From Chloroflexota bacterium (GTDB lineage: Bacteria > Chloroflexota > Chloroflexia > Chloroflexales > Roseiflexaceae), in contig QWQY01000004.1 of assembly GCA_003670675.1 (NCBI GenBank), positions 1 through 39,537 on the forward strand: 39,537 bases of DNA, read 5' to 3'. The notes beneath the pieces are model-generated. The model searched no databases and was not told the origin of the DNA. It saw only the letters and a program-made list of their open reading frames with translations. Each line of letters opens with the position of its first letter. Position 1 is the first letter of the stretch. The translations under genes and the position numbers were made by a program. Of the stretch, positions 25,514 to 36,922 are shown in pieces.

Positions 25514-25683
25514 TTTGGTCTTCACAACGGGCGGGCACCAACGGCTGCATGCATCATACGACGCAAGATAGTTGGTGTCAATCATCTGCGCTCTACTGCA
25601 CACAAACCCTCTCTTTTTTCTTCACCAACTGACGTATACTGTACACATGATCCTGCGGGATTTCTGATAAAAGGATGCGCGCT

Positions 25684-26277
25684 ATGATTCAAGTCAACGT
25701 CGATAGTGTACGTGTGAGTCTCCTCACCCAAAACCGCGTTGTAGTCCTGCGCGAGACCGATAGTCGGCGCTACCTGCCCATCTGGATTGGTCAGTTCGAG
25801 GCAGACGCTATTTCGTTTGTCCTCCAAAACCTGACTCCGACGCGCCCAATGACCCACGACCTGCTGCGGACGATTTTTCAAGAACTCGACGCAGAGATCG
25901 TCCATGTGCTCATCAATGACATCCAAGAGACAACCTTTTATGCACGGATCTTGGTGCAAACCCCACAACGAACCTTCGAAATAGACGCCCGCACCAGTGA
26001 CGCGATTGCCCTCGCCCTGCGTGCCCATGTGCCTATTTTTGTGGCGCCCCATGTGTTTGAACAAGCCTCTGTGCCGTTCGATGGTGACGAACAACAAGAG
26101 CCGCCGCTCTTTAAGGCGTCTGCGACGGTCAGCGACACCGAGCCGACACCGGGCACCGATGCAGCCACTGCACCGACCGACGCTCCCGTGTCTGACGAAA
26201 CCCTGTCGATGTTCCGCGACTTCATTAATTCGCTCGACGACGAGGATGATCCCAAGAAAAACCCACCCAGCGCATAG
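25684..26277 (+). CDS. Bifunctional nuclease family (DUF151) protein
   Basis: MIQVNVDSVRVSLLTQNRVVVLRETDSRRYLPIWIGQFEADAI…RPMTHDLLRTIF…ARTSDAIALALRAHVPIFV. Confidence 0.92.
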   Translation: MIQVNVDSVRVSLLTQNRVVVLRETDSRRYLPIWIGQFEADAISFVLQNLTPTRPMTHDLLRTIFQELDAEIVHVLINDIQETTFYARILVQTPQRTFEIDARTSDAIALALRAHVPIFVAPHVFEQASVPFDGDEQQEPPLFKASATVSDTEPTPGTDAATAPTDAPVSDETLSMFRDFINSLDDEDDPKKNPPSA

Positions 26278-26312
26278 CGATGCCTTCGCGCAAAACACCC
26301 AATCTGATATAG

Positions 26313-26792
26313 TTTTACACTCCAATGTGCATAACTTGGGGTGTTTTTGTGGATAACTCACGAAAATGTGGAAAGTTCTGCACTCCAACGCACTCTACGT
26401 AGCACGATAAAACAAAAACATATGTTCGCATTGATTTGGCAGTGTAGTGTGCCAAAAAACCACGTTTTTCGCGCAATTTTTTCTGTGCATAACACGTGCA
26501 CAACAGCGGGATAGCCGCGGGATAACAAATCCCATCAAACCGGTTATCCACCGCTTTTGTGGACAACGACTCGCGTTGTTCGTGGACCAGCGTGGAACCA
26601 CTGTGGATGAATCACCGATGATCTGCGCGGCTGTTGATGCGTGTGGAGCGTCGTACACATGCAACGGCGATGCGATTGGTCTTCTCCATACGGCAAAACC
26701 ATCCAATCAACATATCCACACGACATACTATGTGCGACTATTTCTTACTTTATATTCTTTTTTTCTTCTTATAGACGGTCGTGTGTGGACAG
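26313..26792. promoter_or_regulatory. Cluster of DnaA-box-like 9-mers with adjacent AT/pyrimidine-rich tract (candidate oriC or DnaA-binding locus)
   Basis: TGTGGATAA 26348-26356 (exact TTATCCACA on minus); TGTGCATAA 26326-26334 and 26484-26492; one-mismatch boxes at 26313-26321, 26367-26375, 26544-26552, 26558-26566, 26602-26610, 26712-26720; AT/pyrimidine-rich run ~26738-26775. Confidence 0.6.
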
Positions 26793-26923
26793 TGCAGAGA
26801 AATCTCATTCCTCACCTCTTTCCCCATCACGACAGATTGTGGTACACTTGTTATCAGTTAGTGATGCATTGTTGCGCCTCGACCTCGGAGGTCGTGGCGT
26901 TTGTATGTTGTGTGGGAGCATGT

Positions 26924-28762
26924 ATGAAGCGAACAGAATTGCGCAATGTGGCGATTATTGCGCACGTTGACCACGGCAAGACGACCCTCGTAGACGGTCT
27001 GCTACGCCAATCCCGTATCTTCCGAGACAACCAGCAGATGGCCGAGCGCGTGATGGACTCGAACGATCTCGAGCGCGAGCGTGGAATCACCATCATGGCC
27101 AAAAACACCGCTGTGATGTACAAGGGCAACAAAATCAACATTGTCGACACCCCAGGTCACGCTGACTTCGGTGGTGAAGTCGAACGTGTGATGAACATGG
27201 TCGATGGTGTGTTGTTGCTGGTCGACGCTGTCGACGGCCCCATGCCACAGACCCGCTTCGTGCTGCGCAAGGCGCTGCAGGCAGGCCACAAGGCCATCGT
27301 GGTGGTCAACAAAATCGACCGCCCCAATGCCCGCCCACAATGGGTCGTCAACGAGACGTTTGACCTGTTTGTCGAGCTGGGTGCTACCGACGAACAAGCC
27401 GAGTTCCACACGGTCTACGCCAGTGCCATCAACGGTATTGCGGGCACAGACTTCAACAATCTGAACGATTCGCTCGAGCCATTGTTCGATGCCATCATCA
27501 ACCACATCCCAGCGCCAGACGTCGACTCCGATGCGCCGCTGCAGATGTTGGTCACCAATACGTTCTACGACGACTACCGTGGCAAAATCATGATGGGCCG
27601 TGTCCGCCGTGGTTCGATGACCAAGGGGATGTCGGTCATCAAGTTCAACCATGAAGGCGAAATGAAGCCTTCGAAGATCATCCAGATCTTCCAATATGTC
27701 GGTTTGAACCGTGCCGAAGTCGACGAAGCCACTGCGGGCGACATCATCGCCATCGCAGGCATTGCCGATGGCATGATCGGCGACACCATTGCTGATCCAA
27801 CCAATCCTGAGCAGCTCCCGGTCTTGGCCGTCGAAGAGCCAACCGTCAACATGACCTTCGGCGTCAACACCAGCCCATTTGCTGGTCGCGAAGGCCAACA
27901 CGTAACCTCCCGCAAGATCCGCGATCGCTTGTACGCCGAGCGCGAGCGCGACGTGGCCTTGCGCGTCGAAGACACCGACGTTCCCGATGCCTTCACGGTA
28001 TCTGGCCGTGGTGAATTACATTTGACTATCCTGATCGAAAACATGCGCCGCGAAGGGTATGAGTTCCAGGTATCGAAGCCTGAGGTTATCTTCCGCGTCA
28101 TCGACGAGCAGCGGATGGAGCCGATCGAACAGGTCGAAATCGAAGTCTCGGAGCAATACCAAGGCGCCGTCATCGAACTGCTCGGGCAACGCCGTGGCAT
28201 CATGCGCGACATGCGCTACCGTGACGACGGCACCGTCAGCCTGACCTTCCTCGTACCGACCCGTGGTCTGCTCGGCTTCCGCCAGCAACTGCTCACGGCC
28301 AGCCGTGGTGAAGGCCAGATGAATTCGTTGTTCTACGAATACCAACCTGTTGCAGGCGATATCAGCACGCGTTCCAATGGCTCGTTGGTCGCTTCCGAGT
28401 CCGGTCAGACCACCACCTTCGGTCTGTTTGGCTCACAAGAGCGTGGCCAATTGTTCATTGGCGCCGGCGTCGACATCTACGAAGGCATGGTCATCGGCAT
28501 GCATGCCCGTGAGCGTGACCTCGAAGTCAACTGCTGCAAAAAGAAGCACCTTACCAACATGCGTTCGTCGGGTGCTGACGATGCACAACGGCTCGAAACC
28601 CCACGCAATATGAGTTTGGACGACGCTGTCGAATACATCGGCGACGACGAACTGCTCGAAGTAACCCCGAAGAACTACCGCCTGCGCAAGAAACTCCTCA
28701 ACCAAGAAGAGCGCAAGCGCGATCAGAAGCGCCGCGAAATGTCTTTGATGACAAACGGCTAG
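26924..28762 (+). CDS. typA: Translational GTPase TypA/BipA
   Basis: [30 protein letters not shown]…[20 protein letters not shown]…[31 protein letters not shown]; start moved downstream from ORF-track start 26447. Confidence 0.96.
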
Positions 28763-35934: not shown

Positions 35935-35963
35935 ACGCCACGGATCAACGCCTCAGCGTGTTG

Positions 35964-35994
35964 CAGGGTATCGCAGAGCGGTACCCTGTTTTGT
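35964..35994 (+). terminator. Terminator hairpin after the ALDH gene
   Basis: CAGGGTA-TCGC-AGA-GCGG-TACCCTG followed by TTTTGTT. Confidence 0.7.
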
Positions 35995-36008
35995 TATCCC
36001 TTTGTGGA

Positions 36009-36039
36009 CAAAATGTTAACTTTGCATGCAAACATTTTG
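36009..36039. repeat. Inverted repeat with nested palindrome
   Basis: CAAAATGTT (36009-36017) / AACATTTTG (36031-36039); nested perfect 12-mer palindrome TTTGCATGCAAA at 36021-36032. Confidence 0.6.
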
Positions 36040-36136
36040 GAAGAGGGAGCAGGTTCATCTGTGTGGTGTGGATAGAAAAAGAGGCCGAAAATTGTCTGTA
36101 ACGGCATTCTTTCGTTTTCTTTGCTGGTGAGATGCA

Positions 36137-36720
36137 TTACGTATTCTGGTTTGTATAGCCATCAAGTGTCCTACTAAATGGTATTACAGGTAGGTGAACA
36201 ATTGGTGTGATATACACACTTTCTCCTGGTGTAATATGCCGTTTTTTGTGGTCGAAAAGGTGTTCTAAACTACTCGGGCTCCAGATGTGCATTTCCCTTT
36301 GTAATGCTGTATACTACGTATTGATGAATACTTGTGTGCTTTCTTTGATCGGTTCCGCTGGTTTCGACGGATATTCTTGCAGTATCGGATTGTACTTAAT
36401 CATATGTGTTTCTTCTTGATTTTTAACAAAATATACACTGTATTTTTTTGATGATTTGACAGCAGACTGTTTATACAGTGTAAAATATATTTCTCCGTAT
36501 ATGTTGTAGACCTCGGTGAGGAGTGTATTGTTCGGCAATTGAGTCTAAATCTATAGTATGGCGTATTCTGCATTAGCATCTGTAAAAATCAACGAGTATC
36601 TGAAAAATCCATGTGGATACCATTTTTGTGTTCCAGTGACCGGTTTTCTAAATAATCTGGTGTCGATGAGTACCAGGATATTTGCTGCGATGAGCCACTG
36701 TGTGAGACGATGTCTTGCTG
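36137..36720 (-). pseudogene. Possible decayed CDS in the AT-rich island: one minus-strand frame interrupted by three stops
   Basis: …RHRLTQWLIAANILVLIDTRLFRKPVTGTQKWYPHGFFRYSLIFTDANAEYAIL*I*TQLPNNTLLTEVYNIYGEIYFTLYKQSAVKSSKKYSVYFVKNQEETHMIKYNPILQEYPSKPAEPIKESTQVFINT*YTALQREMHIWSPSSLEHLFDHKKRHITPGESVYITPIVHLPVIPFSRTLDGYTNQNT*. Confidence 0.25.
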
Positions 36721-36922
36721 GTGGTTCTCATAATTGGCATCCTATTGGCGTTGCATGAACTATGCTGTTGACAGATCGAGTGCAAGGACAGCGAATCACT
36801 TTTCTAACGATTGGTTACGTACACTAAATTTTCAAGTTAATCTGTGAAAAACCTTTGAAAAAGAAACCATCTTTTGAGAAACAATATTACATTTACACTT
36901 TTGTGATCTGCGCTGAAAATGC

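Follow-up and report, generated by a model that had tools for sequence, protein, structure and literature searches.

A probable chromosomal replication origin next to the DUF151 gene in Roseiflexaceae and other Chloroflexales

Boxes and genes around the gap

The window (the whole stretch of 39,537 nucleotides that was analyzed) corresponds to contig C100 in a Roseiflexaceae MAG of 1.73 Mb and 165 contigs whose completeness is 72%. It carries a DUF151 gene followed, after a gap of 646 bp, by typA, both on the plus strand; to the left of the gap, an M23/LysM peptidase and MurJ are encoded on the minus strand, as the preliminary description had it, and genes for ABC transporters and an aminotransferase lie to the right of typA. 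The gap has a GC content of 0.46, compared to 0.57 for the window, and no RNA family was found in it by Rfam. The features of the region are as follows.

25675..26277, plus strand: gene with the DUF151 / bifunctional nuclease (BFN) domain (PF02577, E 4.5e-41), conserved as left neighbour of the proposed origin within the order
26278..26923, no strand: whole intergenic region, proposed oriC (box excess, skew switch, conservation in relatives)
26313-26321, plus strand: further motif TTTTACACT
26326..26334, minus strand: DnaA-like box TTATGCACA, aligned in the five closest genus members
26348..26356, minus strand: exact DnaA box TTATCCACA, aligned in the five closest genus members
26367-26375, minus strand: further motif CTTTCCACA
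26484..26492, minus strand: DnaA-like box TTATGCACA, from the motif search
26544..26552, plus strand: DnaA-like box TTATCCACC, arm of an inverted pair; CTCCACA or TATCCACA is kept here in most genus members
26558..26566, minus strand: DnaA-like box TTGTCCACA, aligned with the third box of the order-wide triplet
26602..26610, minus strand: DnaA-like box TCATCCACA, from the motif search
26712..26720, plus strand: proximal DnaA box ATATCCACA of the putative unwinding module, kept in 10/10 genus members and, as NNWTCCACA, in most of the order
26736..26775, no strand: AT-rich tract (20% GC), candidate DNA unwinding element
26738..26746, trios on the minus strand: DnaA-trio-like run CTATTTCTT, 17 nt past the proximal box
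26924..28762, plus strand: typA/bipA (PF00009 and PF21018), right neighbour in the window's genus only

The motif search recovered every motif named in the preliminary description where it had been placed, including the boxes at 26544 and 26558 (TTATCCACC on the plus and TTGTCCACA on the minus strand) that had been read as an inverted repeat. The excess of boxes is real: matches to TTATCCACA with at most one mismatch number 7 in the gap, where first-order Markov shuffles give an expectation of 0.22 and a maximum of 2. By the same kind of shuffling, exact TTWTNCACA occurs 3 times (0.11 expected), and its one-mismatch variants occur 10 times (2.1 expected; shuffle maximum 8). The AT/pyrimidine-rich tract is equally real, the 40-mer from 26736 being, at 20% GC, the second AT-richest non-overlapping 40-mer in the window.

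Next to typA, the window has a leader stem-loop (GCGCCtCGACC...GGTCGtGGCG, 26873-26903), both arms of which are conserved in 10/10 genus members and whose folding stability is not unusual (z -1.4). Upstream of this stem-loop is a conserved promoter-like block, TGTGGTACACT.

One uncultured Roseiflexaceae MAG encodes a DUF151 protein with 100% identity to that of the window; the other full-length matches reach at most 92%, and by these identities the host is placed near UBA965, in a genus of Roseiflexaceae (Chloroflexota, Chloroflexales). The DnaA of this host contains the usual PF08299 DNA-binding domain and is encoded on contig C151, where the sole exact TTWTNCACA is >3.8 kb from dnaA. Exact TTATCCACA is found 7 times in the whole MAG: once in the gap, four times on contig C95 upstream of an sbcD-like gene, and as two isolated singles (G000:C129:382-390 and G000:C84:10808-10816). 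Because the C95 cluster would win by box count alone, and because the MAG is only 72%-complete, the idea of an origin in the gap had to be tested in relatives.

Conservation of the box block after DUF151

The DUF151 gene was located in 58 of 61 genomes, and the loci were compared in DUF151 orientation. In nearly all of the 58, which represent four families, DUF151 is directly followed by DNA with DnaA boxes; the block is missing or nearly so in G012, G024, and G040, weak in G008 (and G024), and altered in G043, G047, and G052. Outside the window's genus, the usual pattern consists of three minus-strand TGTGGATAA boxes with spacings of 21 and 20 bp (36/42 loci by pattern), in many loci with a plus-strand box ~150-160 bp beyond the triplet. 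In the window's genus, the triplet is degenerate, but an alignment of all 10 members retains the proximal box together with the sequence that follows it. The typA gene adjoins the gap in 10/10 genus loci and in none of the other genera examined. Conservation of the boxes between DUF151 and typA, proposed as a check in the preliminary description, thus extends across four families on the DUF151 side, mostly as the 21/20-bp triplet, with typA as a neighbour only in the genus.

This distribution bears on the reading that the gap boxes regulate typA transcription or are a product of chance. A conserved TGTGGTACACT promoter-like block and a stem-loop do precede typA, but relatives in which typA is not a neighbour still have the box block after DUF151, and the expectation of 0.22 speaks against chance, so that this reading is scarcely credible.

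In a search of 399 Chloroflexota genomes that allowed up to two mismatches and used the reversed pattern as a control, the triplet was matched in 98, each of which had it at a single place, and the control gave 0 matches. In the Chloroflexales with compared coordinates, this place is next to DUF151. Outside Chloroflexales, the triplet can adjoin dnaA, as in L148 (G353) and at G082:C1:799424 (dnaA at 800143); it is far from dnaA in G065 and G368.

Strand composition and parS placement

The preliminary description, relying on hand counts of G and C, had left the skew unsettled. In the window, GC skew over 10 kb is -0.011 left of the gap and +0.028 right of it, and the flip becomes clear once gene strand is controlled. 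Skew is higher to the right of the DUF151 gap than to its left in 15/15 contigs from this genus and others (stretches of up to 10 kb), with a small rise in three of them (G011, G040, and G055); the change from negative to positive seen on G002:C11, G006:C10, and G010:C38 is weaker in the window. The mean rise at the locus is 0.074, compared to 0.006 in 97 background 20-kb samples, and none of 100,000 resamples reached 0.074 (the resampling value is 0.02 when only the four complete genomes are used).

Chromosome-wide skew was sampled in 20-kb pieces from the complete relatives. As judged by raw sampled skew, the DUF151 locus is a good origin in G055, nearly ties with the best position in G046, is weak in G048, and is not significant in G013. 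Because the raw two-arm skew is noisy in G048 and G013, and because gene direction also affects skew, third-position (GC3) skew was measured by gene strand as the difference between leading and lagging strands for 61 trial origins in the four complete genomes. The ORFs were called mechanically and some are not genes, noise that should weaken the signal rather than create it. With DUF151 as the origin, the difference is +0.125 in G055, +0.089 in G048, +0.102 in G046, and +0.031 in G013; the locus beats all 61 trial positions in G055, G048, and G013 and ranks 7th in G046, where the best position is at 2.19 Mb and the locus at 1.97 Mb. With dnaA as the origin, the respective values are -0.102, -0.069, -0.078, and +0.027; in G013, dnaA is 0.135 Mb from the DUF151 locus, and this genome hardly separates the two candidates. 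Inside the window, GC3 skew is -0.228 for plus-strand and -0.078 for minus-strand ORFs on the left and -0.099 for plus-strand ORFs and -0.248 for the single minus-strand ORF on the right; pooled over five genus contigs (the window and four others), it is -0.035 for leading and -0.255 for lagging strands. By these calculations, replication-strand composition switches at the DUF151 locus.

G046, G048, and G055, the three Chloroflexus genomes, each have a single exact parS (TGTTTCACGTGAAACA), 1.6-2.3 kb from DUF151. In G013, where DUF151 is at 135.8 kb, exact parS sites number three (36-75 kb), and a site with one mismatch is at 136.6 kb. The distance from DUF151 is ~31 kb in G043 and, on genus contigs, ~18 kb (G006 and G008) or 28 kb (G002). 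The exception is G027, with only a one-mismatch parS far from DUF151. The window's MAG has three parS sites on contig C61, which is not linkable to the window; the location of parS in the same chromosomal domain as the DUF151 locus is seen in relatives, at up to tens of kb or more.

These data are at odds with an origin upstream of dnaA. Genome G046 (5,258,541 bp), which we take to be the C. aurantiacus strain of the published map, has dnaA at 753 bp, and the tests above put its origin near 1.967 Mb; in G055, the DUF151 locus is at 2.628 Mb. For C. aurantiacus, oriC has been put at twelve o'clock, dnaA being gene 1 (Caur_0001), in passages that offer no test of this assignment (PMC3150298). 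In the same order, the published oriC is thus placed at dnaA, as opposed to ~1.967 Mb here, and the twelve o'clock position is contradicted by the skew. A search of published papers found no mapped Chloroflexales origin besides that statement. The published placement, under which the DUF151 cluster would be an accessory DnaA-binding site, is in keeping with 2-3 exact boxes near dnaA or position 1 in G046, G048, G055, and G013. However, GC3 skew for dnaA is negative in all three Chloroflexus genomes, the two-arm fit has the dnaA interval among the lowest-ranked in G055, G046, and G048, and parS in the three Chloroflexus is by DUF151 and not by dnaA, all of which makes a dnaA-linked origin very improbable. 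The boxes near dnaA (in the first or last kb of G046:C1, G048:C1, G055:C1, and G013:C1) may serve dnaA autoregulation and are a likely reason why oriC was assigned there.

Unwinding module, sbcD cluster, and the proposed origin

In B. subtilis, origin unwinding requires distal and proximal sets of boxes (PMC6669920). The basal unwinding system (BUS) has been described as a box, a spacer, and NAN trios, the best of which is 3'-GAT-5'; the program that detects it starts from spacers of 0-16 nt, with longer ones allowed if an upstream box matches better (PMC8287927). CTA is the complement of 3'-GAT-5' (PMC8235120). Across the order-wide loci, a plus-strand proximal box, often with a second weaker box, is followed by a short spacer and then CTACTA or a relative. 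Two consecutive trios were counted after the strict three-trio rule had been found to hold in only 9/50 loci: CTACTA lies within 22 nt past a box in 14/50 loci, with 0 on the opposite strand and 0.1 in shuffles, and the looser CT[AG][CG][TG]A, a pattern chosen after the data had been seen, in 28/50 loci, with 3 on the opposite strand and 1.15 in shuffles. The window has the order expected of a BUS (a box with at most two mismatches, ATATCCACA, then 17 nt, near the limit for a spacer, and then CTATTTCTT) within the 20%-GC tract. The likeness to B. subtilis incC covers distal and proximal boxes, the spacer, trios of the 3'-GAT-5' type, and the AT-rich tract (PMC6669920, PMC8287927); unlike incC, the window's genus has fewer and less perfect trios and a proximal box that is single or has a weak partner.

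A denser box cluster elsewhere in the genome, named in the preliminary description as evidence against an origin in the gap, does exist. On G000:C95 of the window's MAG (L002, 10608-10862), four exact boxes, including an inverted pair TTATCCACA-N3-TGTGGATAA, lie within 255 bp between sbcD and a minus-strand ORF that resembles a glutamine amidotransferase (gatD-like, by eye). The cluster is specific to the genus: 2-5 exact boxes are present upstream of sbcD in 8/8 genus loci with upstream sequence and in 0/21 loci of other genera, with an invariant TTATCCACA followed ~73 bp on by a pair of the TTATCCACA-N3-TGTGGATAA type. Contig G002:C11 carries both clusters, 39 kb apart. The four exact boxes on C95, as against one in the gap, the presence of the cluster in the genus and its absence elsewhere, and the degeneration of the triplet could mean that the genus's origin has moved to sbcD, leaving the typA-side cluster as a decaying relic. 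Yet no skew switch was found at sbcD on G002:C11, G003:C1, or G006:C31 (with little DNA to the right of sbcD in two of these), five genus contigs have the switch at the DUF151 gap, 10/10 members keep the proximal box and the following DNA, and no conserved trio run was found at sbcD in the genus loci; a relocated origin is therefore most unlikely. Being genus-specific and devoid of both a skew flip and trios, the sbcD-upstream cluster is probably regulatory. That the extra boxes regulate initiation or the flanking promoters are guesses, for which the datA and DARS loci of E. coli could be a model.

The same loci had been offered in the preliminary description as an alternative for the gap. datA and DARS are likewise DnaA-box clusters away from dnaA, but such loci need not sit at a strand-asymmetry switch, and the DUF151 locus does, with parS near and an unwinding-type module with an AT-rich tract. 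A titration or reactivation site of this type fits worse and has hardly any probability for the gap; the position of the skew switch argues against it there and not at the sbcD cluster.

The combination of a box cluster beyond chance within a conserved block, a lagging-to-leading composition switch, an adjacent candidate unwinding element, and parS in the same domain suggests, with high confidence for a reading made from sequence, that the region is the chromosomal oriC of its Roseiflexaceae host and that its orthologues are the oriC of Chloroflexales. Its uncoupling from dnaA, as envisaged in the preliminary description, is supported by order-wide box conservation, skew, parS placement, and the conserved unwinding-type module. 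Origins unlinked from dnaA are a known kind, E. coli being the familiar example; both consist of an intergenic DnaA-box cluster with an AT-rich tract at a switch of strand composition, with dnaA elsewhere. The proposed origin differs from the E. coli type in its neighbours (DUF151 and, in the window's genus, typA) and in the fixed 21/20-bp box triplet of the relatives.

The box cluster, its conservation, the strand switch, parS proximity, and the order of the module were computed; the steps of loading and melting are inferred from how the motifs are ordered. On the model of the B. subtilis unwinding system, DnaA, encoded elsewhere on the chromosome, would bind the gap boxes, loading first on the distal array next to DUF151 and passing from there to the proximal box or boxes. 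The DnaA filament could then extend over the adjoining trio motifs, so that the AT-rich tract next to typA would melt and the helicase be loaded. Two forks would leave, one towards DUF151 and murJ and the other towards typA.

A broader and rather speculative scenario is that in much of Chloroflexota the origin is built on a helically phased triplet, TGTGGATAA-N12-TGTGGATAA-N11-TGTGGATAA, which serves as a single platform for loading DnaA. This platform could have moved among gene neighbourhoods (dnaA in some lineages, DUF151 in Chloroflexales) with its spacing kept, and the window's genus could be relaxing the triplet, having added an initiation-regulating partner cluster at sbcD, ~39 kb off in one member.

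With an oriC after DUF151, replication in an order made up of anoxygenic phototrophs and their relatives (Chloroflexus, Roseiflexus, and kin) would start from a testable locus, and the habit of equating oriC with dnaA, followed in genome numbering and in the published map, would be corrected. Plasmid work in Chloroflexus would also gain an origin that is compact and conserved, and estimates of the growth rates of lake Roseiflexaceae from metagenomic coverage would gain an anchor. The fixed-spacing triplet, found once per genome in 98/399 Chloroflexota, could be a simple landmark for the origins of the phylum.

Two further groups of boxes were seen. An AT-rich stretch of ~960 bp without a long ORF (window 35935-36892) contains three one-mismatch DnaA boxes and one TTTTTCACA and is hardly conserved beyond its edges in G006 and G010. 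In the three Chloroflexus genomes, two exact DnaA boxes, 19-20 bp apart, lie 6.6-7.5 kb from the proposed DUF151 origin, at the following positions.

G046:C1:1960162-1960190: exact DnaA-box pair
G048:C1:1895753-1895781: exact DnaA-box pair
G055:C1:2620162-2620189: exact DnaA-box pair
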